Source: Deltaproteobacteria bacterium
GTDB taxonomy: Bacteria; Desulfobacterota; DSM-4660; Desulfatiglandales; Desulfatiglandaceae
Length of the DNA stretch: 34,141 bases
Direction: 5' to 3'
Assembly (NCBI GenBank): GCA_021737785.1
Contig: JAIPDI010000053.1
Coordinates: forward strand, 1 to 34,141
Shown: positions 3,294-18,796 of the stretch, piece by piece
Numbering within the stretch: the first letter of the stretch is position 1
How the letters are laid out: every line of letters starts with the position of its first letter
The notes under the pieces: model-generated
Databases searched by the model: none
The model's input: only the letters and a program-made list of their open reading frames with translations
Told to the model about the DNA's origin: nothing
Made by a program: the position numbers and the translations under genes

Positions 3294-3506
3294 ATGTCTG
3301 AATTATACGCTCAAATATTGTCAGCGGTGGCAGATGCCTCCGCCCTTCGTCTCGTGGTGAACCTCAAACCGGCCAATGTGGATGGACTCGTTTATCCGCC
3401 GACCTACGACCAGGGCCAGCACATCTTTCGCCCTGCCTGGATCGATGGAAAGGAGCGTGACGCGGTTTTGCTTGACTCCGTCCAAAGTCAGGCTATCCCC
3501 TGCTGA
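3294..3506 (+). pseudogene. csb1: 5' fragment of csb1 (Cas7 of type I-G), truncated by deletion
   Basis: The frame starts at ATG 3294, 7 bases after a GGAGAG ribosome-binding site. It reads like the N-terminus of Csb1 (GSU0053 family), the Cas7-type backbone subunit of type I-G (formerly I-U) Cascade. It has 'RLVVNLKPANVDGLVYPPTY', a Csb1-like 'GLVYPPTYDQG' segment, and 'DAVLLDSVQSQA', which in the family is followed by N-R. After about 67 residues the similarity ends and the frame stops three codons later (IPC, then TGA at 3504). Csb1 proteins are around 300 residues or more, so most of the gene is missing. What follows directly is the 3' half of cas3 in another frame, so one deletion seems to have removed the csb1 3' end, whatever lay between, and the cas3 5' half. 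Confidence 0.65.
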
Positions 3507-5485
3507 CGAATTACATTCGGTCCTTCACCGCCGGCTTTGGGCCTCAAAAAAAGCACAACTCGCTACGGCGGACGGGGGCGAGCGCGATTTTGTGGAACTG
3601 GTCGTCTCTGCAGGGGAAAAGCTGTCAGAATCCGTCAGGGTAATTGGAATCATTGTCAACCGGGTCGCCACTGCCCGGAGTATCCGTCAGGCCCTGGTCA
3701 AACGAAAGCACAGGGCCGAACTCCTCACCGGCCGGGTGCGTCCCCATGATCGTGATGGACTGATGGAGCGTCTCCTGCCTGAGATCCGTGCAGGGAGGAC
3801 CCGAATTGAAGGGCCGGTCCTGTTTATTGTCGCCACTCAGACCGTTGAAGTGGGCGCGGATATCGATTTCGATGCCCTTATCACGGAGGCAGCTCCCCTG
3901 GACTCCCTTCGCCAGCGCTTCGGTCGGCTCGACCGGTTCGGGGAGATTGCGAATACACAGGGGGTGATCCTTTACCGCAAACCCAAACTCGACAAAAACG
4001 GCCAACCCATGCCCGATCCTGTGTACGGCACAGCTATCCAAGAGGCCTGGGAATGGCTGGAAGCGGTATCGCGTGACGGTTGCGTTGATTTTGGGGTAGG
4101 CGGCCATGGCAGAGATGTTCGAACAGCGAAGACCGCCGGTTAGACCGTTTAAACATGGACCGACCCTGCTTCCGAGCCACATCAGCCTTTTGGCGCAAAC
4201 CGGCCCTGAAGCCCCTGAAATCAATGTCTCCCCCTGGCTTCATGGTGCTGGAAGCGGAGCCCCTGATGTGTCCATTGTCTGGCGGTTGGATTTGCCCGCC
4301 GCCAATTCTGTGGGATGGGAGGAGGCGGTGAGGCTGCGTCCCCCCCTCACGCGGGAGGCCCTTGAAATCCCCGTGTATGCTGCTCGATCGTGGCTGGAAG
4401 GGGGTCGCGCCCAGGACGTAACGGATCTCGAGGGCATGGCGGGAAGGCCTTCAGGCGCAGGCGCATCCGGCAAACCTGTCCTTTGCTGGCGCGGGCCTGA
4501 CGATTGCCGCGTCATCTTCCCCCGCGATATCCGTCCGGGCGACACCCTGGTGGTCCCCGCCGCCTATGGCGGTTGCGATCCATATGGATGGGCCCCAAAC
4601 AGCAACGCCCCGGTGGAGGATATCGCTGATTTCTGTTCGTTGGAACGAGGAGGCGCCCACATTGTCCGCCTGGTGCCGGGGCTGACAAGCTGGATGGGAC
4701 CCCATGAAGCGCCCGTACAGGAGGCAGTAACTGAGCTGTTTTCAGCCGAGACGGAAATGGATCCGGAAATGGGTATTGACCAGGAACGGGTCCAGCTTGC
4801 CCAGTCTGCCCTGCGTGCTTTCCTTCTGGAGGTCGATCACCCTTTGATCACAGCCTTTCACGGGGGATTCGAGATCGAACCACATCCGGCCGGCGTGGTG
4901 CTGAGAGGCCGTGTCATGGATGAGGTGGAAGCCGTATTAAGCAGCGGCGTAGCCGTAGAACTGGATCGTCACCTGAAAGGTGTGACGGACCAGGCTCTGA
5001 CATTAGCCGTCGGCCACCCGGAAAAAGGCCGCATATCGCTTGCTGCAAGCAAGCACGACCTCGGAAAAGCAGAGCCCCGCTTTCAGGCCATGCTTCACGG
5101 GACCCCGTTGGCAGCAGCCAGCGGACCCATCTTGGCAAAATCGGGGCTCCGGAAACTCTCGCAGATCCGGGCCGCCTATGCCCGGTCGGACCTGCCCGCC
5201 GGATTCCGTCACGAGCTGGCTTCACTGGCCTACGCCTTTGAACCGGACCAGATCGTTCGCTACCTCATCGGTACGCATCACGGATACGGGCGGCCCTGGT
5301 TCCCCGCATGCGCCGATACGGAGGCCCCGGGGACCGATCAGATCTTCCTTGGAAGCCCATGGGCGCAGGCGTTTGCAATCTTGCTGGATGAGTGGGGTCC
5401 CTGGGGCCTGGCTGGGATGGAGCTGCTCCTGAGGGCATCGGATATTCGCCAGTCGATTCTTGAGCAGGAGAAGACGGATGCATGA
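3493..5485 (+). pseudogene. cas3: 3' part of type I-G cas3 (helicase C-terminal and HD domains), frameshifted
   Basis: From about codon 'SPADELHSVLHRRLWASKKA' onward this matches the second RecA domain of a Cas3 helicase: VIGIIVNRVATARSI (motif IV region), FIVATQTVEVGADIDFDALI (motif V) and PLDSLRQRFGRLDR (motif VI). The first RecA domain with Walker A and DEAH is absent. At about 4099 one extra G ends this frame (stop at 4141). The protein continues in the frame of 4106-5485, and removing that G gives V-A-A-M-A-E-M-F-E-Q, a smooth join. The rest ends in an HD nuclease domain (ISLAASKHDLGKAEPRFQ, THHGYGRPWF). A helicase-then-HD order is characteristic of type I-G Cas3. As read, no functional Cas3 can be made. 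The 3' end overlaps the next gene by 8 bases. Confidence 0.8.
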
Positions 5486-6308: not shown

Positions 6309-6473
6309 GCTCACACGAAAACCCAGGGAGGTTCGCGCGAGGGAAATACTATGGGATATAAAAGGGTTAGGGTCAACACGGCAATCGCAACCCGTTTGCA
6401 GGAGGCAAAAATTCAAGGGTTCGCGGAAAGCAACCTAAAAAGCCTGTGTCCACAATATGTTATACGTGTGCAG
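6309..6473 (+). promoter_or_regulatory. probable CRISPR leader region
   Basis: A 165-base stretch between the Cas8-like gene and the first repeat, with no convincing gene. The repeat ending in GTTGAAGC and the degenerate last copy at the right end both indicate that the array reads rightward, which places the leader here. No promoter hexamers are convincing. Confidence 0.4.
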
Positions 6474-6722
6474 GCGATCTCCCGGCGAAAGCCGGGACTA
6501 CGTTGAAGCTTGCTAATCTCGGGCATGTTGATCTCGAAACCCGGGCGATCTCCCGGCGAAAGCCGGGACTACGTTGAAGCTTGCTAATCTCGGGCATGTT
6601 GATCTCGAAACCCGGGCGATCTCCCGGCGAAAGCCGGGACTACGTTGAAGCATTTCGGGCGTGCTATCGGCGGTTGTGTCGAATAGGCGATCTCCCGGCG
6701 AAAGCCGGGACTGCGTTGAAGC
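6474..6722 (+). CRISPR. short CRISPR array, 4 repeats and 3 spacers, two spacers identical
   Basis: Four 36-nt repeats lie at 6474-6509, 6545-6580, 6616-6651 and 6687-6722. The first three are identical. The fourth has one change (A to G at 6713), as expected for the trailer-end copy. Each carries a hairpin CCCGGC-GAAA-GCCGGG and ends GTTGAAGC. All spacers are 35 nt (6510-6544, 6581-6615, 6652-6686), and spacers 1 and 2 are the same sequence. The array follows type I-G cas remnants and the repeat is of a type compatible with subtype I. No cas1, cas2 or cas4 is in the window, so no new spacers can be acquired from here. Confidence 0.88.
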
Positions 6723-7531: not shown

Positions 7532-10500
7532 ATGCTCTTGGATCAAGAAAGAAGACTATTTAAAAGTATCTCTCGTTCTCATTTGTACTGGGGCCGTAAA
7601 CCTATCACTGGCCTCTCCAGAATCTTAGAAGGTTTGGGACCCGGTGACATTTTCCTTGATCCATTTTGTGGAGGTGGAACATCAATCGTCACGGCACTTA
7701 GTAAGGGGGCAAGGGTGATAGCAAGTGATTTAAATCCCATGGCTGTGTTCCTGTCGAAAGTGCTTATTCAGCCAGTAAGTCTTTTCGCGCTGAGAGAATC
7801 CTTTGAAATAGTCCGGAAAGATGTTGCCGGTTCCATACTTAAAAATTATACCATTTCCTGTCCAAAATGCGGAAAAGAAATCCCTTTCGATTATCTGAAG
7901 TGGATTATCCAAAACGGGGAGGCGATACCCGAGGCTATAAAGATCACATGCAACTATTGTGGCTTAAGGGATCTGCGAGAGTTGTCAAGAACTGAAATTG
8001 GCAGGCAACTGAAACTCTCAGCTACGCAGCCAAGGCGCTGGTGCCCCAAAACCCGTATCCGCTCTCAAAGAAAAACAAAGGTTGAGTTTTTCCACGAGCT
8101 TTTTACAGGGCGCAATCTAACTTCATTATCCAAATTATGGCATGCTATTGAACAGACCCCTTCGGCCACATGTAAAGATGTATTGAAATATGTATTTACT
8201 GCCATGCTTTACAGTTGCAGCTCAATGCAAATGGTTTCGGACAAATGGCCTTCGTCCTCACGCGGGTGGACCGCTCTAAGATTTTACTTGCCTTCAATTA
8301 GGCAGGAAAAGAACGTATGGCAAGCTTTCGCAAATCGTTTCAAAACGGTACTAAAAGCAAAAGAAAACGTGAATCCGATTTGTCAGTTTGTGCGAATATC
8401 AGATTCAATGGATAAATTTGAAAGTTCAGATGACCACGCATTCATTTTTGAAGAAAGTTTTTCTAGGTTTTCATTCCCCAAGAATTTGGAGGTTCATCAC
8501 GTTCTTCTAGATCCCCCATACAATGACGATATTGACTACATAGGATTCTCAGAGTTTTGGGGGTCTTGGTTGGGCGCGGCTTCTGACATCAATTCCGGCT
8601 GGCATCCGGGCACTATTTCGATTAAAGAGAATTCAGAAAAACTTATGAGTCTTCTAATGCGCATTAAAGAAAACACAACTTCTAGATGTCCAGTTACTTT
8701 GGCTTATGGTTCAAAAAATGCGATGGCCTGGGAATTCTTAAACGAAATCATATCAAATGCTGGCTATGAAATTCGAAATAAGATACCCATTCTTTGGGAC
8801 AACTCCCAGAAAAGAGGCAAGAAGCCTTCAACCGATCTCTATCTTGTTCTTGGCAGGGCAACTACAAGCCACAAAGATAACGATTACGGGCTTTCGGAGG
8901 AGGACTCGAACGAAATGGCATTTTTTGTCAGGGTGGCTGCGTTCTTGTTGCGCCCTGATGTGTCAAATCCTGAAGGTATTGTAGATCTGGCAGTCAATCT
9001 TGTTAAACATCATTTGAGAATACCATTAAGAAATGTTGATTCGTCCTCCATCAGGTTATGGGCATCAGATGAACAGATGAACCGAAAAGCCTATAACAGA
9101 TTAGCGTTTGCTCTCATCAAGCCAATATTGTCACAGGATGGTTTCAGTATTGTTTCAGCCAATATCAGTGAATTTGATCAATCTAATCTACAAGGCTATG
9201 AACAAATAGGATCTCTTCCGATGCCGAAAGGCCTGGCTAAGGGGGCTGACTTTGTTTCCGAAAATGCGGAAGGCAATCGGATTCTATTTTGCTTCCATAG
9301 GCAGTCAGATCTTGATGCGCTGAAACACCTTGCTAAACGAGTTTTAGATAAGGATAAGGATAAATTTCAAACTATCTGTTATTTGATAGTCCGAACTCAC
9401 GATCAGATACTGCGATGTAGAAAGGATGACCAGTCAGATAACTGGCCAAGGGGATTTTTCATCGAATTCAACGAACTGCTTAAAAAGGCTAGGAATATCA
9501 ATAAAAGCCGTTTTGGTCACCTAAGTACGATATCGCCACGGGCCGATTCCGACTTCAGATCTCAAAAAAAAATTGAGCACTTTAATGCGAAAGTCATAGA
9601 GAATTTTCCTGTGGGTGGTGACGGTGATCCCAAACATTTTATGCTGCGATTCGAGGCACCCCAGCTTGAATATGTTGTACCTGGCCAATTTCTAATGATT
9701 GACACATTGTCATATGAAAAAAGACGGCAGGATAGTATGGGCCAGTCTTTTACCACTTTACCTACTCCAGGAAGCTATCCTCCAATTCGTAACACGCTCC
9801 TAGAATCTAAATCATTTCTTAAAAGGCCCTTCAGTATTCACAGGGCTTATTACAGGCATTTTGAATTGGGTTACCTAAAGAATATTTATCTGTCTCGCAC
9901 GCTTGCATCTATAACACATACTGTTTTTCCACACAAATTTGAAATCTTTTACAAGGTAACCGAAAATGGCACGGGTACGAATGAACTTAAAAAGATGAAA
10001 AAGGGGCATAGGTTTCGGACCCTAGGGCCACTGGGTAAAAGACCGAATTTAGCCAAATGGCTATCGGATGGTATTCAAGAGGTTCATCTTATTGGCGGTG
10101 GTGTCGGGATGGCTCCGCTCATGTTCTTTGGACAGGCTTTAAGGTATTATTCATTCAGGATCAAGGCCTTCATAGGAATCGATACCATAGGGTCATTACT
10201 GTTTAAGGCGCCTTTGGCAGAAACTTTTGGAGAAGATGATCCGAGCAGGGCTTATGTGTACATCGATAATTTAAAAAGTATTGGGCTTAGTGAAAATGAC
10301 ATCCACATATCATTCGAAAAAACCATAAATGACAGTGAGACAGACATTGGGTTGCCCAAGCAAAACTACTTTACGGGCTTCGTTAGCGGACAATATAAGG
10401 CTTTTCTCGAAAAATTGGACAGCTACAATGGGATATTGGTGCTTACTTGTGGTCCTAAGCCCATGCTGAGGGCCTTAGCAAAAATTACCTCCATAGCCAA

Positions 10501-10663
10501 TATACAGATGAAAGTTCTCCTGGAGAAAAGAATGGGTTGTGGGATCGGTGTATGCATGTCTTGCGTCTGTCGAACCAAGAAAAATGGAGCGGAACGATAT
10601 TCACGAGTTTGTACGGAAGGACCGCTTTTCGATTCTCAGGATATTGTATGGGAAAAGTTATGA
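7532..10663 (+). CDS. DNA methyltransferase fused to a PyrK-type electron-transfer subunit
   Basis: A 1043-residue protein in one uninterrupted frame. Residues 1-440 are an amino-methyltransferase: HLYWGRKPITGLSRI (18-31), SAM-binding DPFCGGG (43-49), SDLNP (65-69), a zinc-ribbon insert with CPKC (110-113) and CNYC (140-143), and catalytic DPPYND (327-332). This layout recalls DUF1156-type methylases with inserted zinc ribbons. Residues 440-680 are unrecognised. Residues 680-1043 match PyrK, the FAD/[2Fe-2S] subunit of class 1B dihydroorotate dehydrogenase: RPFSI for FAD (765-769), GGGVGMAPL for the nucleotide (855-863), CGPKPM (973-978), and cluster ligands Cys1003, 1008, 1011 and 1027. The stop overlaps the pyrD start by 4 bases. 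The ribosome-binding site is weak. A chimera from assembly error is possible but unlikely, because the frame is open throughout and composition is even. Confidence 0.85.
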   Translation: MLLDQERRLFKSISRSHLYWGRKPITGLSRILEGLGPGDIFLDPFCGGGTSIVTALSKGARVIASDLNPMAVFLSKVLIQPVSLFALRESFEIVRKDVAGSILKNYTISCPKCGKEIPFDYLKWIIQNGEAIPEAIKITCNYCGLRDLRELSRTEIGRQLKLSATQPRRWCPKTRIRSQRKTKVEFFHELFTGRNLTSLSKLWHAIEQTPSATCKDVLKYVFTAMLYSCSSMQMVSDKWPSSSRGWTALRFYLPSIRQEKNVWQAFANRFKTVLKAKENVNPICQFVRISDSMDKFESSDDHAFIFEESFSRFSFPKNLEVHHVLLDPPYNDDIDYIGFSEFWGSWLGAASDINSGWHPGTISIKENSEKLMSLLMRIKENTTSRCPVTLAYGSKNAMAWEFLNEIISNAGYEIRNKIPILWDNSQKRGKKPSTDLYLVLGRATTSHKDNDYGLSEEDSNEMAFFVRVAAFLLRPDVSNPEGIVDLAVNLVKHHLRIPLRNVDSSSIRLWASDEQMNRKAYNRLAFALIKPILSQDGFSIVSANISEFDQSNLQGYEQIGSLPMPKGLAKGADFVSENAEGNRILFCFHRQSDLDALKHLAKRVLDKDKDKFQTICYLIVRTHDQILRCRKDDQSDNWPRGFFIEFNELLKKARNINKSRFGHLSTISPRADSDFRSQKKIEHFNAKVIENFPVGGDGDPKHFMLRFEAPQLEYVVPGQFLMIDTLSYEKRRQDSMGQSFTTLPTPGSYPPIRNTLLESKSFLKRPFSIHRAYYRHFELGYLKNIYLSRTLASITHTVFPHKFEIFYKVTENGTGTNELKKMKKGHRFRTLGPLGKRPNLAKWLSDGIQEVHLIGGGVGMAPLMFFGQALRYYSFRIKAFIGIDTIGSLLFKAPLAETFGEDDPSRAYVYIDNLKSIGLSENDIHISFEKTINDSETDIGLPKQNYFTGFVSGQYKAFLEKLDSYNGILVLTCGPKPMLRALAKITSIANIQMKVLLEKRMGCGIGVCMSCVCRTKKNGAERYSRVCTEGPLFDSQDIVWEKL

Positions 10664-11616
10664 AATCACTTTGTGTTCAGATTAAAAATCTAAAACTGAA
10701 AAGCCCTTTAATGACTGCCTCAGGCACATCCGGACATGGGGATGGAACGGCGGTATTGAGAAAGAGCTCCGAAATATTATCATCTCTTGGGGCATTTGTG
10801 ACAAAGGGAGTTACGCTTGAACCAAGAGAGGGAAATCCTGAATTCAGGATTGTTGAAACTCGCACAGGTATCATAAACTCGATCGGTTTGCAGAACAACG
10901 GCGTGCAAGTTTTTGTAAAGAAAGAACTCCCTGAGTTTCTCAATGCTGATTTGCCAATTATCGTCAACATTGCAGCGAATTCGATAGAAGAATTTGGCAG
11001 ACTCGCATCCTATCTGAGCGAGAATGATTTGAGCCAGTTAATCAACGGAATCGAAATCAACGTATCATGCCCGAACATTAAAAAGGGTGGAGTATCGTTC
11101 GGCATCGATCCAAAGCAAGTTGAACGCATCGTTAGAGCTGTTAAAAAGAATATTGACAGTCGAATTATGTTGATAACTAAACTCACTCCAAATATTACAG
11201 ATATTACCTTGCCAGCGCGGGCTGCCATTGAAGGAGGGTCTGATGCACTTTCAATGATTAATACACTTCGTGCTATGGCTATAGATATTACCACAGGGAA
11301 ACCGTATCTTGGAAGCAGGTCGGGCGGTCTTTCTGGCCCAGCCATAAAACCCGTCGGTGTATTTATGGTATATGAATGTTTCGATAAGATCCCAGAATGT
11401 AGCAGGGGAGATGTGCCGATAATTGGAATTGGAGGGATTTCAACGTGGCGAGATGTTCTTGAATATGTAATGGCAGGGGCAACGGCAGTTGGTATTGGCA
11501 CGGCTTGGTTCGTCAACCCTGATGTCTTCAATGAAATCCACAAAGGCATAGTGCAATATTTGAGAACGAATAATACTACTATTAGGGATTTAATAGGCAA
11601 AGCTCATGAAGCGTGA
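10660..11616 (+). CDS. pyrD: dihydroorotate dehydrogenase, class 1B catalytic subunit
   Basis: A 318-residue FMN TIM-barrel enzyme, close to the usual length of about 305. It oxidises dihydroorotate to orotate in pyrimidine synthesis and passes electrons through PyrK to NAD+. Substrate and FMN motifs are complete: MTASGTSGHG (18-27), TKGVTLEPREGNP (48-60), 'ETRTGIINSIGLQNNGV' (66-82), NVSCPN with the class 1B base Cys137, KLTPNITDI (174-182), INTLRAMAID (200-209), GGLSGPAIKP (222-231) and IGIGGI. The start at 10660 is chosen because its ATG overlaps the upstream TGA (ATGA), a classic coupling arrangement; an in-frame ATG at 10648 is the alternative. The gene is fully conserved and looks catalytically competent. 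Its partner electron-transfer subunit is the fused C-terminus encoded just upstream. Confidence 0.93.
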   Translation: MKSLCVQIKNLKLKSPLMTASGTSGHGDGTAVLRKSSEILSSLGAFVTKGVTLEPREGNPEFRIVETRTGIINSIGLQNNGVQVFVKKELPEFLNADLPIIVNIAANSIEEFGRLASYLSENDLSQLINGIEINVSCPNIKKGGVSFGIDPKQVERIVRAVKKNIDSRIMLITKLTPNITDITLPARAAIEGGSDALSMINTLRAMAIDITTGKPYLGSRSGGLSGPAIKPVGVFMVYECFDKIPECSRGDVPIIGIGGISTWRDVLEYVMAGATAVGIGTAWFVNPDVFNEIHKGIVQYLRTNNTTIRDLIGKAHEA

Positions 11617-12097
11617 AAGAGGGCATTATACCGCTAAACTATCAGGTACAGAAAAGATTGAGTTCTATCTTAAAAACCTTGCGTCAAGCTCCGCGTTTAG
11701 CTTCATTGCAACGGAGCGGAAAGAGAAACTGTATGTAGAAATTTCGGGCCCCAAAAAAATCTCTGACAACGAAAGCTTGGATGATATCGAGCACCAATTG
11801 TCAAATCGTGCACGAGAATTAGGGATTGACGCTCCAAAATTGGTAAGAGATGTGGGCCAAGATATTTTTAATGCCCAAAAAGCAGAAGAAATTGTTCTGG
11901 ATGGCCCAATGCAACTTGAGGCAACACCAAACAAAGAAGCCGAGGCAATCATTGTAAAACTGACTCTGGTTCTGGATGGGGACCCCAAGGTAGATGAATG
12001 TATCGATCAATACGCTTTGTTGCGGGTTATTTGGTTGGCGAATTCTCTGGGAATGAACTTCGAAGAATTTGAAAAGAAAACCGTTCCTCTGCACTAA
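11606..12097 (+). CDS. unrecognised small protein, third gene of the methylase-PyrK-PyrD operon
   Basis: A 163-residue protein whose ATG overlaps the end of pyrD by 11 bases, so it is almost certainly translated from the same message. It has no signal peptide, no transmembrane segment and no cysteine cluster. The composition is acidic and mixed alpha/beta. The last 50 residues (VKLTLVLDGDPKVDECIDQY, then LLRVIWLANSLGMNFEEFEK) are the most structured-looking part. I do not recognise a family. The tight coupling suggests it works with the two enzymes, for example as a regulator, substrate adaptor or toxic effector, but nothing in the sequence decides between these. Composition is AT-rich like its two partners. 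Confidence 0.75.
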   Translation: MKRERGHYTAKLSGTEKIEFYLKNLASSSAFSFIATERKEKLYVEISGPKKISDNESLDDIEHQLSNRARELGIDAPKLVRDVGQDIFNAQKAEEIVLDGPMQLEATPNKEAEAIIVKLTLVLDGDPKVDECIDQYALLRVIWLANSLGMNFEEFEKKTVPLH

Positions 12098-12651: not shown

Positions 12652-14013
12652 ATGAAGACAAAAAGATCCAAGAAATGGAAAGATCCCCTGATTGATCAGA
12701 TGGAGCGGGCTTTAGACCTTGGCCGGTTCATTTCCTACAATGATTCCTGGGAGTTTGTACAGGACCTGGAAGAGATAAAAGGGGAAATCGATAAACTGGG
12801 AGGGTCTGGCGAAACCGATCGGGCGGTGCACCTCTATGAGCTGTTTTTATCCGGGTGTTATGACAAGGCGGAAGAAATTGACGATTCAAGTGGTCGTTTG
12901 GGAATGTTTTTTGAGGATTTGTTTTTGGCCTGGATCAAAACAAGGCAACAGGCAGGAGGTGCGGCAGAGGAAACGGTCCAAGAGATCCTCGGATGGATGG
13001 AGAATGACGACTACGGCTTTTGCTATGACATCGAGAAAAAAGTCGCACGGGCTCTTAACAGGCCAGCTCTCCGCTTATTTAGACAGCATTTTGAGGATCG
13101 CTTCAATGAAGCCTTCGCCCCTTTCGATTCCGAAAAGCCCCGATTCATTTATGACTATCCTGCAGATGTCTATCGGAGTGCGGACAAGCTCAAAGACATT
13201 TATGTGGGGGAAAGGGATGTCAAGGCCTACGTGTCGCTTTGCGAGAGGGTAGGAGTTACACCGAAGGATTGCGAGCATATCGCTTCACTGTACAAGGCAA
13301 AAAGACAGTATGCAGACGCGCTGGTTTGGGCTGAAAAGGGATTGAAGCTTCAAAAGGCACGGAAATGGCCGAACCAATCCAGCTATGCACTGACTGCTAT
13401 CAGGATGGAATTGCTCAACAAACTAGGACGGAGAGGGAATGCCCTTGAGAGCGCCTGGGAAGAATTCATCCAGTACCCATCGAAAGAGGGCTACGACCAA
13501 CTGAAGAAATACGCCTCCAAGAAAGACTTCCCCCATTGGCATCAGAAGGCGATGGAAAATGCAAAGAAGGCCTCTTTGTCTGCATTCATTGATATCTGTA
13601 CGACAGCAAAGGACTGGGAAGTGCTTTCAAGGCATATCCTTGACGTCGAAGACCGTGAATTGGAAGAAATAAGCCATTATACCACTGAGCAGGCCGCAAA
13701 AAGCCTGTCAAGCAAGCACAGCCGCGCTGCCGCCAAGATTTACACTGCCCTGGGAATGCGGATTATCCAGAATGGGAAGAGCAAATATTACCCTTATGCA
13801 ATGGAATATTTTCGGAATGCCAAAAAGCTCTACAAAAAGGCGGGATGCGACGAGACATGGCTATGCGTCGTTGAGAGAGTGCGAAAGGACCACTCCCGAA
13901 AACACAGCTTCATCGGTGGATTTGAGGATATTGCGGGTGACAAGCCCCTCAAGTCTCCAGATTCTTTTGAGAAAAGGGCACGAAACAGGTGGAAGAGGCA
14001 GACAGTAAGATGA
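12652..14013 (+). CDS. helical-repeat protein, first gene of the SEC-C/SNF2/SWIM cluster
   Basis: A 453-residue soluble protein, almost wholly alpha-helical by composition. It has TPR-like segments such as 'IASLYKAKRQYADALVWAEK' (about 210-229) and 'AMEYFRNAKKLYKKAG' (about 383-398), and a strongly basic C-terminus. There is no signal peptide and no catalytic motif. Proteins of this general type (large helical repeat, often encoded beside SWIM zinc-finger genes) are known, and the SWIM gene of this cluster lies 5 kb downstream. I infer that it is a scaffold or interaction partner of the SNF2/SWIM pair. The gene is 44 bases before the SEC-C gene, so the two are probably cotranscribed. The ribosome-binding site (AGGAAA, about 12 bases before the ATG) is weak. 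Confidence 0.7.
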   Translation: MKTKRSKKWKDPLIDQMERALDLGRFISYNDSWEFVQDLEEIKGEIDKLGGSGETDRAVHLYELFLSGCYDKAEEIDDSSGRLGMFFEDLFLAWIKTRQQAGGAAEETVQEILGWMENDDYGFCYDIEKKVARALNRPALRLFRQHFEDRFNEAFAPFDSEKPRFIYDYPADVYRSADKLKDIYVGERDVKAYVSLCERVGVTPKDCEHIASLYKAKRQYADALVWAEKGLKLQKARKWPNQSSYALTAIRMELLNKLGRRGNALESAWEEFIQYPSKEGYDQLKKYASKKDFPHWHQKAMENAKKASLSAFIDICTTAKDWEVLSRHILDVEDRELEEISHYTTEQAAKSLSSKHSRAAAKIYTALGMRIIQNGKSKYYPYAMEYFRNAKKLYKKAGCDETWLCVVERVRKDHSRKHSFIGGFEDIAGDKPLKSPDSFEKRARNRWKRQTVR

Positions 14014-14056: not shown

Positions 14057-15073
14057 ATGACAAAGATCGGTAGAAACGACCCCTGCCCCTGCGGTTCGGG
14101 GAAGAAGTACAAGGACTGTTGTCTGGCAAAGGAGGCTCAGGAGGGTGAAAAGGGCATGGTCGATCGTCTGATGGAAGAAATCGGTGAGCAATTGGGCGAC
14201 CGAAAATTTGGTTCCCTTGAAGAAGCAAATGAGTTCCTTGGGCGTTTCATGGAGAGAAAGGCCTCGGTTCCCCAGATGGATTTCCTGGGTCTCTCCTCAG
14301 AGCAGATGCACCGGATGCTCCATGCCCCCCTGGAGAGCCTGGATGACATGGTCCGATTCAACCATGTCTTGGAGCCGGCGGCCTTTCACGAGATTCCAGT
14401 GGTGAAGAACACCCTCCTTTTTTTGAGTCGGTTGAAAGAGAAAGAGCCTCTCAAGGCCACTGCCAAGGGCAATCTTCCCCTTGCATTTGCGCGGGCGCTC
14501 TATGAGGCATTCAACGCGCGATCTCATTCATTTCCTCACCCTATCCGCTCTGAACAAGACGCCGTGTCCGTGAACAGCTTGCGGCATATCCTCAAACTCT
14601 GCGGATGGTTGAAAAAGGCGAACAACCGTTACAGCCTGACAGCCAAAGGGACAAAGGTGATCGAAAAAGGCTTTTCTGCGCCTCATTTTTTCACACTGAT
14701 GAACGAGTTCGTTCGTCGTTTCAACTGGGGATTCCAGGATCGGTATGCCTCGTTCTGGATCGTCCAGGGCGGGGCTGTGTTCTCATTATGCCTGTTGCAT
14801 CAAAAGGCGCGCCGGTTTATCCCGGCAGAACAACTGGGGGATTATTTTATCCGGGCCTTTCCGGCTGTTCTGGATGAGGTTACGGCAACACCTTTCTGGA
14901 CTCCCAGGGAGCAGGTCCGCAGCTGTTTTTCGCTCCGTTTTCTGGTGCGATTCTGCGAGTACTTCGGTTTTGTGGATATTCAGAGGGAAGAGAAGACGCC
15001 CCATATGTTCGAGTTGTCGGTCAGAAAAAGCGCATTCTATGATCAATACATCACCTGGTCGAATGTCTCCTAA
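14057..15073 (+). CDS. SEC-C zinc-motif protein
   Basis: A 338-residue protein that opens with a perfect SEC-C motif, IGRNDPCPCGSGKKYKDCC (Cys10, 12, 21, 22), the zinc-binding module first seen at the SecA C-terminus and common in stand-alone proteins. The remaining 300 residues are not SecA-like. A winged-helix-like stretch is suggested by VNSLRHILKLCGWLKKANN followed by YSLTAKGTKVIEKG (about 175-208), a pattern seen in uncharacterised SEC-C proteins. The start is supported by AGAAGGGG just upstream. It follows the helical-repeat gene in the same direction by 44 bases. The function is unknown; zinc-dependent binding to nucleic acid or protein is inferred. Confidence 0.8.
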   Translation: MTKIGRNDPCPCGSGKKYKDCCLAKEAQEGEKGMVDRLMEEIGEQLGDRKFGSLEEANEFLGRFMERKASVPQMDFLGLSSEQMHRMLHAPLESLDDMVRFNHVLEPAAFHEIPVVKNTLLFLSRLKEKEPLKATAKGNLPLAFARALYEAFNARSHSFPHPIRSEQDAVSVNSLRHILKLCGWLKKANNRYSLTAKGTKVIEKGFSAPHFFTLMNEFVRRFNWGFQDRYASFWIVQGGAVFSLCLLHQKARRFIPAEQLGDYFIRAFPAVLDEVTATPFWTPREQVRSCFSLRFLVRFCEYFGFVDIQREEKTPHMFELSVRKSAFYDQYITWSNVS

Positions 15074-15886: not shown

Positions 15887-18796
15887 ATGGGATTGATCGA
15901 CAACGGCATTTGGGGTATGGTCTGGCTGATTTTCAGGAATTGGACGGGACGCAAAGGCCTGCGACCCAAGCAATACAGGGAGACGTATCGGATCGCACTG
16001 GATCGCAACCGCGCAACCTTTTGCGCCATGGTGAAGGTGCCCCGACCCGTCACGCGGCAGACGACGCCGACCCCACTACCTTTACTGAATCATGAGTTGG
16101 GTGATCGCATGCAGGAAGTGACACATCAGGAACTGAATGTGGTGGTGATGCCGAATCGGTCCCTGCAACTGGAATGGACAGATGCGGCGGATGTGATTGG
16201 CCAAAGCAGCCGATTGATCCAGGACGATATTTGGAAGCGTTTCACGTCCAAAGATGATTCCTGGCTTTTTATGCTGGGCTTTTCAGATCAACAGGTCCCC
16301 CTCTCTCCATCCCTCGATTACTGGCGCGGCTTTGCCGGTGCGTTTGCAGGGAAACTGATCCAGACCCCGAATCTCGAAACCCTGCGTCACAAGATATCGC
16401 TCCCGCTCTCCGCAGATGAACGACAGCTTTATCTGGACCGGATCCCGATGATGATCGGTTCGGAATACATCGATGCCGATCTTCTTGAAAACGCGTGGCA
16501 AGTGCTGCACAGGGCATTTGGCCATGCCATCCGGTCATACAAGGGATCCGTAGAAGAGTTTGTCAGGACCTACAGCCCCAATGCCCAACTCGTGGGACGG
16601 GTATTTTTCCACCTGGTCGAAAACAGGGATGACGTCTACCCGTTCGCCTTTATGGCAACCTATAGCACCAGCCTGAACCGGCAGGGAAAGTCGAGACATC
16701 TTCCCCTGAAGCACGCCCTGCAGGAGTATGGGGATGACTCTCAAAAGCTGTTGGAACTCCTTGCCACCGTTCATAAGGCCGCAGATCAAAGTCCCCTGAT
16801 GACGGAACTCCTGGAGACAGGGGAGATCTTCCATCCCATGGCCTGGACCTCCGGGGATGCCTTCTCGTTCTTAAAGGAGATCCCGATCTATGAAGCATCG
16901 GGCATCCTGTGCCGGATCCCCAACTGGTGGAAGGGGAACCGAGGCCGGGTCTCCCTGAACTTCAGCGTGGGCGATAAGCAGCCCTCTTTTGTGGGCATGG
17001 ATGCGCTGCTCAGTTTCAACCCGAGACTTTTTGTCGGGGATATGGAGATCTCCGAGGAGGAGGCCAGAAGGCTTTTGGATGAATCCGAAGGCCTGGCCTT
17101 TATCAAGAACAAGTGGGTGGCCGTGGATCAGGAGCGGCTCAAACAGACGCTGGATGCCTATGAAAAGGCAAAAGAGCTTATGGAAAGGAAAGGGATCAGC
17201 CTGAGAGACGCGCTTCAGATGCAGCTCATGCCCGAAAAGTTCCTGGATATGGATCCCGGCCGGATCGACCACAGCGTGTCGAACGGCGAATGGCTGCGGT
17301 CAGTCGTTGAAAAACTGATCAATCCTTCCCTCATCCCTTCGGTTGCGCCTGATAAAGGGTTCAAGGCAACCCTTCGCCAATATCAGCAAAAGGGGATTAA
17401 CTGGCTCTATTTCCTCCATTCACTCCGATTCGGGGCCTGCCTGGCGGATGATATGGGCCTGGGCAAGACCGTCCAGGTCCTGGGGCTCCTGAATATCCTG
17501 AAATCCGATGCCAAAAAATCCAAGCAGCCGAACCGCGCATCCCTCCTCATCATACCCGCATCCCTTATCGCCAACTGGGAGCATGAGATCAGGCGATTTT
17601 ATCCTGACCTTAATATCTATATCGCACACCCGGGGGCGGATTTGAAAAAAGGGAGTGGCCCTGAGGATAAAAAATCACTGGATGGCGTGGATCTCTGCAT
17701 TACCACTTACGCCCTCGCCCAGAGGCTTCAGTGGCTGAAAGGTTATTCGTGGAACTATATCATCCTGGATGAGGCCCAGGCCATCAAGAATCCGGGGACC
17801 AAACAGGCCAGGGCCATCAAGGGTCTTATATCCGCAAACAGGATCATCATGACAGGGACCCCCATCGAAAACCGGCTCTCGGACCTCTGGTCCCTCTTTG
17901 ACTTTCTGAACCCGGGACTGCTCGGGAGCACCAGGGAATTTAAGACGTTTTCAAAGGGTTTGACGAACAACCCGTCAGGCTATTCGAGATTGCGAAAAGT
18001 CGTCAGTCCGTATATATTGCGGCGCCTGAAAACAGACAAGTCGGTCATATCCGATCTCCCCGAAAAGGTGGAGATGAAGACCTATGCCCCGCTCAGCAAA
18101 AGGCAGGTCCTCCTGTACAAGGATATGGTTGAGAAGATAAAGGCATCCATTGGCGAGACAGATGGGATCCAGCGAAAGGGGCTGATTCTTTCTTCGCTCA
18201 TGCGATTCAAGCAGATCTGCAACCACCCGGACCAGTATCTGGGCACGGGCGAATTTGTGGAAGACGACAGCGGCAAATTCTTAAGACTCCGCGAGATCTG
18301 CGACACCATATACGAAAAACGGGAGAAGGTCCTTGTATTTACCCAGTTCAAGGAGATGACAGGCCCGCTTCACGATTTCCTGGAGACCATCTTCAAGCGA
18401 AAGGGCGTTATTCTGCACGGGAGCGTCCCTGTCAAAAATCGAAAAGCCATTATTGATGCATTCCAGAGTCCAACCTATGTCCCGTTTATGGTATTGTCCC
18501 TCAAGGCCGGCGGGGTGGGGCTCAACCTGACCGAGGCAAGCCATGTGGTCCATTTTGACCGGTGGTGGAACCCTGCCGTGGAAAACCAGGCAACGGACCG
18601 GGCCTTCCGCATCGGTCAGAAAAAAAATGTCATCGTGCATAAGTTCCTGACCCGAGGGACCGTCGAAGAAAAGATCGACAAGATGCTGGAAGAAAAGACC
18701 CGGTTGTCCCAGGAGGTCATTGCCGAGAGCGGGGATAAATGGATCACCGAGATGAACAACGATGAGTTGATGGATCTTTTCAGCTTGAGGCTATAG
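15887..18796 (+). CDS. SNF2-family helicase/translocase
   Basis: Up to 969 residues. The C-terminal half is a complete SNF2/HepA-type ATPase: LRQYQQKGINWLYFL, Walker A DDMGLGKT (521-528), DEAQ box (628-631), MTGTPIENRLSDLWSLFDFL, and in the second lobe VLSLKAGGVGLNLTEASHV and ATDRAFRIGQ (902-911). The N-terminal 450 residues are the helicase-associated region typical of bacterial SNF2 proteins that pair with SWIM proteins. Such enzymes translocate on double-stranded DNA and displace proteins. The SWIM gene follows after about 100 bases. The start is uncertain: the frame is open from 15887 (weak GGGG before ATG), but ATG 16109, 'MQEVTHQELNVVV', is an equally good start and the first 74 residues look unlike the rest. 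Confidence 0.9.
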   Translation: MGLIDNGIWGMVWLIFRNWTGRKGLRPKQYRETYRIALDRNRATFCAMVKVPRPVTRQTTPTPLPLLNHELGDRMQEVTHQELNVVVMPNRSLQLEWTDAADVIGQSSRLIQDDIWKRFTSKDDSWLFMLGFSDQQVPLSPSLDYWRGFAGAFAGKLIQTPNLETLRHKISLPLSADERQLYLDRIPMMIGSEYIDADLLENAWQVLHRAFGHAIRSYKGSVEEFVRTYSPNAQLVGRVFFHLVENRDDVYPFAFMATYSTSLNRQGKSRHLPLKHALQEYGDDSQKLLELLATVHKAADQSPLMTELLETGEIFHPMAWTSGDAFSFLKEIPIYEASGILCRIPNWWKGNRGRVSLNFSVGDKQPSFVGMDALLSFNPRLFVGDMEISEEEARRLLDESEGLAFIKNKWVAVDQERLKQTLDAYEKAKELMERKGISLRDALQMQLMPEKFLDMDPGRIDHSVSNGEWLRSVVEKLINPSLIPSVAPDKGFKATLRQYQQKGINWLYFLHSLRFGACLADDMGLGKTVQVLGLLNILKSDAKKSKQPNRASLLIIPASLIANWEHEIRRFYPDLNIYIAHPGADLKKGSGPEDKKSLDGVDLCITTYALAQRLQWLKGYSWNYIILDEAQAIKNPGTKQARAIKGLISANRIIMTGTPIENRLSDLWSLFDFLNPGLLGSTREFKTFSKGLTNNPSGYSRLRKVVSPYILRRLKTDKSVISDLPEKVEMKTYAPLSKRQVLLYKDMVEKIKASIGETDGIQRKGLILSSLMRFKQICNHPDQYLGTGEFVEDDSGKFLRLREICDTIYEKREKVLVFTQFKEMTGPLHDFLETIFKRKGVILHGSVPVKNRKAIIDAFQSPTYVPFMVLSLKAGGVGLNLTEASHVVHFDRWWNPAVENQATDRAFRIGQKKNVIVHKFLTRGTVEEKIDKMLEEKTRLSQEVIAESGDKWITEMNNDELMDLFSLRL

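Follow-up and report, generated by a model that had tools for sequence, protein, structure and literature searches.

A probably horizontally spreading dihydroorotate dehydrogenase with a methyltransferase fused to PyrK as a likely stand-in for the resident enzyme in Desulfobacterota

Class 1B dihydroorotate dehydrogenase (DHODH) is composed of PyrD and PyrK (PDB 1ep1-1ep3, 5ksw, 5ue9). Here we describe an operon from a Deltaproteobacteria bacterium (draft assembly GCA_021737785.1, 96 contigs, labelled G000) that resembles this enzyme in its full-length PyrD, in the flavin adenine dinucleotide (FAD), nicotinamide adenine dinucleotide (NAD) and [2Fe-2S] parts of its PyrK, and in the adjacency of the two genes. 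Its PyrK is unusual, however: at 1043 residues against about 260 it is far longer, a methyltransferase domain and a middle domain precede it, and its FAD part contains an insert. The window, as used below, is the whole stretch analysed, 34,141 nucleotides (positions 1 to 34,141, forward strand) of contig JAIPDI010000053.1. Standalone methyltransferases of the same phylum (L010-L013, 843-849 residues) can be aligned with the methyltransferase part, and their C-terminal domain resembles the extension of two other long PyrKs, those of genomes G115 and G151. Unlike the fusion, they have no PyrK part, and the window's middle domain has no significant match to their C-terminal domain. Type II methyltransferases and the DUF1156 antiphage protein also have methyltransferase motifs in common with the fusion; the match to the DUF1156 model (NCBIfam NF042963), however, reaches 27 bits against a cut-off of 1000 and covers only residues 43-75, which does not make the fusion a member of that family. 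No description of a PyrK-methyltransferase fusion was found in the open-access literature (subscription papers and preprints lay outside the search), in line with the initial annotation of this DNA, which knew of no such system.

We estimate at roughly 0.7 the probability that the operon encodes a housekeeping DHODH, spreading laterally and displacing the resident enzyme, with the methylase as an accessory or passenger. All three genes lie on the plus strand. The fusion (7532-10663) starts with ATG and is a single uninterrupted frame. Residues 1-440 (7532..8851) form an amino-methyltransferase module according to PADLOC, Pfam, profile alignment and model fold, with motif I DPFCGGGT at residues 43-50 (7658-7681), motif IV DPPYND at residues 327-332 (8510-8527) and two CxxC pairs (residues 110/113 and 140/143) that resemble a zinc ribbon. 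Residues 455-676 (8894..9559) make up the middle domain, helices followed by an alpha/beta part, and residues 678-1043 (9563..10663) the PyrK with its FAD, NAD and [2Fe-2S] parts and an insert after RPFSIHR. The class 1B-type pyrD (10660..11616, ATG at 10660, 318 residues) overlaps the fusion by 4 bases, and ORF3 (11606..12097, 163 residues) overlaps pyrD by 11 bases. The guanine plus cytosine (G+C) content of the operon is 42.3%, against 55.0% in the remainder of the window, and the island looks foreign. The initial annotation had described the long frame with its motifs and CxxC pairs, the complete pyrD, the small third gene, both overlaps and the AT-rich composition correctly.

The PyrD of the window passes NCBIfam PRK07259 (354 bits, cut-off 269) as well as TIGR01037, matches PDB 5ue9 chain A at E 1.3e-62, and shows all seven DHODH motif patterns checked, covering the orotate and flavin mononucleotide (FMN) sites and the catalytic Cys. 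Six cognate PyrDs have five to seven of the patterns each, SCPN being present in all six. The C terminus of the fusion matches Pfam DHODB_Fe-S_bind (PF10418) at E 2.1e-14, above the cut-off, and PDB 1ep1 chain B at E 3.9e-14. Four NCBIfam PyrK models match it partially, the best at E 5.9e-29 and 100.9 bits against a whole-protein cut-off of 314, and none of these cut-offs is reached. The [2Fe-2S] cysteines are Cys 1003, 1008, 1011 and 1027; in the alignment the cysteines and the GGG(V)G and CGP motifs are conserved. The operon combines the sequence features of class 1B: a subfamily 1 PyrD with the catalytic Cys and the orotate and FMN motifs, a PyrK with a four-Cys [2Fe-2S] site plus FAD and NAD parts, and directly adjoining genes for the two.

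The best PADLOC match of the methyltransferase part is a generic type II methyltransferase (E 5e-22), and methyltransferase models of several systems match it. In Pfam the window protein stays slightly below the cut-offs of N6_N4_Mtase (23.8 bits, cut-off 26.7) and MethyltransfD12 (20.2 bits, cut-off 22), whereas the fusion of genome G153 exceeds the D12-class cut-off (31.3 against 22). A profile alignment with the standalone methyltransferases spans 425 columns at 29% identity. The structure model of the fusion has a mean predicted local distance difference test score (pLDDT) of 60.8, highest in the methyltransferase part, and the solved structures closest to that part are methyltransferases (best Z 14.8 over 183 residues at 3.5 Å). 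The window protein has the S-adenosylmethionine motif I and the DPPY motif IV within a predicted Rossmann methyltransferase fold. The catalytic and CxxC residues are mostly conserved among the fusions; G018 has DPPC where DPPY is expected, which may weaken its methyltransferase.

The fusion is not confined to one genome. A search of 148 relatives with the fusion protein and of 85 genomes of the order with a two-row profile found it in G000 and in G018 (Desulfobacterales bacterium isolate NIOZ-UU19, contig JACNIU010000313.1 of 5004 bases). When 395 genomes sampled from the phylum (a second draw gave a nearly identical sample) were searched with a profile that joins the middle domain and PyrK, seven long PyrKs were returned: that of G000, the fusion of G153, and the methylase-less forms of G367, G289, G310, G115 and G151. 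With G018 added, eight carriers are known, three of them with the methylase (G000, G018 and G153). The full-length homologues, both from Desulfobacterota, share 52% (G018) and 49% (G153) identity with the window fusion. Among the three fusions the identities of the methyltransferase part (59, 54 and 50%) parallel those of PyrK (55, 52 and 52%), and by this measure the methyltransferase is as conserved as PyrK where it is present. The pyrD gene directly follows the fusion in G018 (2-base gap) and in G153 (4-base overlap), where the three-gene order including ORF3 is repeated, and pyrK and pyrD also adjoin in G367, G289 and G310. In G115 a stretch of about 1 kb, containing another frame, separates the long PyrK from the pyrD that follows it, and in G151 the contig ends before any pyrD was found. 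No credible methylase remnant was found by tblastn ahead of the shortened PyrKs; G289 and G310 have a stop just before the start codon, where their relatives have Trp.

A viral origin of the fusion was considered and rejected: a two-pattern scan of viral contigs gave 30 pattern stretches, and none encodes a relative of the fusion. The proteins found there are three methyltransferases (542-601 residues) and two PyrKs (262 and 282 residues), all separate. Matches also occurred in 107 plasmid and 21 phage records, but in none of them did the match span 80% of the fusion. The scan of GTDB contigs relied on just two peptide patterns, which fail to match the fusion of G153, and the whole-genome searches were confined to one phylum, so that fusions in other phyla may be missed.

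The state of the ordinary genes points to replacement. On contig C57 of G000 an intact ordinary pyrK (270 residues) is followed by an ordinary pyrD of only 187 residues (L006:1321-1884). Compared with its counterparts in G001 and G002, it is well conserved apart from one large in-frame gap, is 360 nucleotides (120 codons) shorter than that of G002, and lacks the NAIGL, NISCPN and KLSPN segments, the catalytic cysteine segment included; given what class 1 enzymes need for catalysis, its product presumably cannot work. A family search for class 1 PyrD, which succeeded in each of the 14 control genomes (E. coli among them), hit five places in G000: the window gene, the two halves of the short gene, DusB (C2) and a weak match on C19 (E 4e-4). 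In G018, G367, G289, G310 and G115 a single pyrD exceeds the family cut-off, namely the one that follows the long PyrK. A search for ordinary PyrK gave strong matches in G000, G153 and four non-carriers; in G018, G367, G289, G310, G115 and G151 it found only the cognate PyrK and proteins of at most about 30% identity, the best of which in G018 and G367 are NfnA-type. The initial annotation had asked whether the hosts also carry an ordinary pair: G153 has one, intact and on different contigs, G000 has the shortened pyrD, and none was found in five carriers.

Beside the long-PyrK operon, no other intact pyrD was found in six of the eight carriers. An intact ordinary pyrD occurs in one of the eight, against 12 of 14 non-carriers examined (Fisher p 0.0015, or 0.003 without G151, for genomes that are neither random nor independent); among the non-carriers, G001 was scored as intact though a contig end cuts the gene, G039 has half a gene and G022 none. 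Multiplying the stated incompleteness values of the five genomes in which no ordinary copy was found gives 7e-6, a rough figure. All eight carriers have a pyrE match, above the cut-off in five, below it in G151 and in G000 (there at full length) and weak and partial in G310, which indicates that the next step of the pathway is present in most of them. The initial annotation had reasoned that its reading would fail if this were the only pyrimidine copy and lacked a recurrent methylase link. The former holds in so far as the operon's pyrD is the only intact one found in G000; the latter does not, since the link recurs.

In the PyrD tree (21 of 22 rows, the shortened PyrD of G000 being excluded) six cognate PyrDs group together with 100/100 support, at a large distance from 13 ordinary PyrDs and one from a viral contig. 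The PyrK tree (19 of 21 rows; L130 and L016 gave none) places the eight long forms on one side of a branch (82/87), with the warning that long branches meet. A concatenated tree of middle domain, PyrK and PyrD was made for the six close relatives; G151, having no pyrD, was excluded. It joins methylase-less G367 with methylase-bearing G153 (100/100, a pair also seen in the PyrD tree alone at 99/96) and methylase-less G289 and G310 with methylase-bearing G018 (96/95); with G115 added, the same groupings have 95/99 and 94/95. Since each methylase-less lineage is sister to a fused one, a single ancestral fusion followed by two methylase losses would be the simplest history for the six. With the methylase-less G115 as outgroup, one gain plus two losses equals three gains in step count; a single fusion is preferred because of the same junction and the parallel identities of methylase and PyrK. 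G000 and G018, though members of the same family, are not placed together, and in G+C the operon falls well short of its surroundings in G000 (42 against 55%) and G153 (35 against 44%). These two observations suggest that the operon was probably acquired horizontally, most strongly so for G000 and G153. No direct repeats were found at the operon edges.

Several observations weigh against such a takeover. Replacement is not universal, as G153 retains both ordinary genes intact, the only carrier of the eight to do so, and the short ordinary pyrD of G000 could be an assembly error. The absences are not proof, because G289, G310 and G115 are 85, 78 and 85% complete, and non-carrier G022, 95% complete, has no pyrD detectable at E 0.001. 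Not every copy looks sound: the sole pyrD found in G367 (L087:6617-7573) is interrupted by an in-frame stop some 80 codons after its start, and the long PyrK of G310 (L089:5191-6774) has Gly at the first [2Fe-2S] cysteine. The PyrD of G115 falls outside the cognate clade on a long branch, and PyrD alone joins G000 to G153 plus G367 (97/95) with G018 outside, unlike the concatenated tree. The G+C contrast is small in G367, G289, G310 and G115.

In the proposed mechanism, PyrD with its FMN would oxidise dihydroorotate to orotate, and the electrons would reach NAD+ by way of the [2Fe-2S] cluster and the FAD of PyrK. The operon, probably acquired horizontally, would stand in for the resident enzyme, as the ordinary pyrD of G000 without its catalytic core and the lack of a detected ordinary pair in five carriers suggest. 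An ancestral PyrK would have gained a methyltransferase module as an N-terminal fusion; three descendants retain the module, and others apparently lost it while keeping the DHODH. Given these losses, the methyltransferase would have an accessory or passenger role outside the core reaction, attached as it is to an essential enzyme.

The middle domain is kept in the methylase-less long PyrKs. The extension of the G115 and G151 PyrKs matches the C-terminal domain of the standalone methyltransferases at E 6e-6 to 7e-4; the next match is at E 3, and nothing else was found among 1419 background open reading frames (ORFs). A G115/G151 profile ranks all four standalone methyltransferases first against 371 background ORFs (390 non-duplicate ORFs of 200-900 residues, less PyrK and methyltransferase relatives dropped by motif), and its top background row, L009, is the second half of such a methyltransferase. 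The reverse search from the C-terminal domain is weak (E 0.004 for G151, 3.7 for G115). The middle domain of the window itself does not match that domain significantly, ranking 5-36 with an eight-row and about 300 with a six-row profile among the 371 ORFs, and its separate model is poor (pLDDT 52). Its tie to the standalone methyltransferases depends on G115 and G151 being relatives; these two also have the insert after RPxSxHR, and among the matches of the fusion that cover PyrK only, G115 comes first (E 3.5e-32, the next being 8e-22). The C-terminal domain of the standalone methyltransferases (ID...FEVEST) is presumably PD-(D/E)XK-like, and the window's middle domain is possibly a degenerate form of it. 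The acidic residues of FEVEST are not kept in the PyrK extensions, where none is conserved beyond the first acidic residue, so that any nuclease would probably be dead. The middle domain was also considered as a nuclease from its own sequence, a reading that did not reach significance against the 371 ORFs. The standalone methyltransferases, L009-L013, are 843-849 residues long with a conserved C-terminal domain, the gene of L009 being frameshifted; a short gene encoding a UPF0758 (RadC-like) N-terminal domain precedes them, as checked in L010 and L013 and judged by eye in the others.

ORF3 has no Pfam or NCBIfam family at E 0.1; its best match is at E 0.08 in PDB and 0.05 in PHROGs, and no family was assigned. 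A homologue (40% identity) follows pyrD in G153; none was found in the stretches around the long-PyrK genes of G018, G367, G289, G310, G115 and G151, only about 0.6 kb being available behind the pyrD of G018. Upstream of the operon the window contains pieces of Cas3 in two frames (3376-5485, best match Cas3g), which adjoin four 38-nucleotide repeats with 71-nucleotide spacing and identical first two spacers (6472-6722), probably a mini-array of clustered regularly interspaced short palindromic repeats (CRISPR). Downstream follow a DUF6880 protein (12652-14013), a SEC-C motif protein (14057-15073) and an SNF2-type helicase (DUF3670, 15887-18796) whose best PADLOC matches are ZorD and DpdE. The neighbours in G367, named by eye, resemble nifS/nifU and secretion genes.

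The initial annotation had proposed an antiphage or DNA-hypermodification system among broken defence genes. The latter description is fair, as a 116-residue AAA ATPase fragment and the Cas3 pieces lie upstream, and an AT-rich island beside a probable CRISPR mini-array fits such a system; pyr operons are, according to PMC10986495, strongly down-regulated early in phage-infected Lactococcus, so that a link between pyrimidines and phage is not absurd. The defence reading draws on the window neighbourhood alone. The operon of G153 stands in ordinary surroundings: uvrB, a sigma factor gene and dnaJ precede it, and a small gene resembling REP transposases (61 bits, cut-off 80) follows. No PADLOC model matches PyrD or ORF3. 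The PyrD motifs are those of a normal DHODH, the operon's pyrD is often the only intact copy, the methylase was apparently lost twice, and no viral relative of the fusion was found with the two patterns used. An antiphage role is thus unsupported and very improbable. A false join of two genes through faulty assembly or sequencing has a negligible chance: the assembly is a draft, but the same join without an internal stop recurs in three genomes at 49-52% identity, and the halves are not always separate genes, which the initial annotation had named as the sign of an error. The fusion it reported is genuine.

Closer to the preferred reading is the possibility that a selfish or orphan methylase persists by being part of the same polypeptide as an essential enzyme, the resident copy of which subsequently disappears. 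The continuous frame in three genomes, the deletion or absence from searches of ordinary genes in most carriers and the equal conservation of methyltransferase and PyrK speak for it; we regard it as a tentative alternative, since two apparent losses of the methylase left the DHODH in place, which suggests that fusion protects the methylase poorly, and the DPPC of G018 may weaken the enzyme. It is conceivable, though rather doubtful, that a methyltransferase made hard to lose by an essential redox enzyme moves between lineages and displaces the resident gene as a metabolic addiction device, and that PyrK might in addition switch the methylase on or off according to redox or orotate state. Less likely still is a coupled sensor in which the redox or orotate state of PyrK/PyrD controls the methyltransferase or nucleic-acid-binding part, regulating genes or modifying RNA or DNA according to pyrimidine supply. 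A physical fusion kept across large divergence and the mostly conserved catalytic and CxxC residues would fit it; the methylase is lost, however, in G367, G289 and G310 with the DHODH kept, and the only regulatory search made, a promoter scan, gave 11 promoter-like sites against 12.0 expected, no better than chance. The link between methylase and DHODH may be selfish, regulatory or neutral.

A housekeeping DHODH that spreads laterally and carries a methylase along remains our preferred explanation. An enzyme of central metabolism has apparently been replaced by a foreign version bearing a methylase, with G000 having its own pyrD shortened in frame and G153 still holding both. The methylase module rides on a gene that looks indispensable, and the operon offers a testable example of a module becoming indispensable. 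A gene annotated as 'pyrK' may conceal a methylase. Should the methylase be active, nucleic-acid methylation would be physically tied to pyrimidine synthesis.

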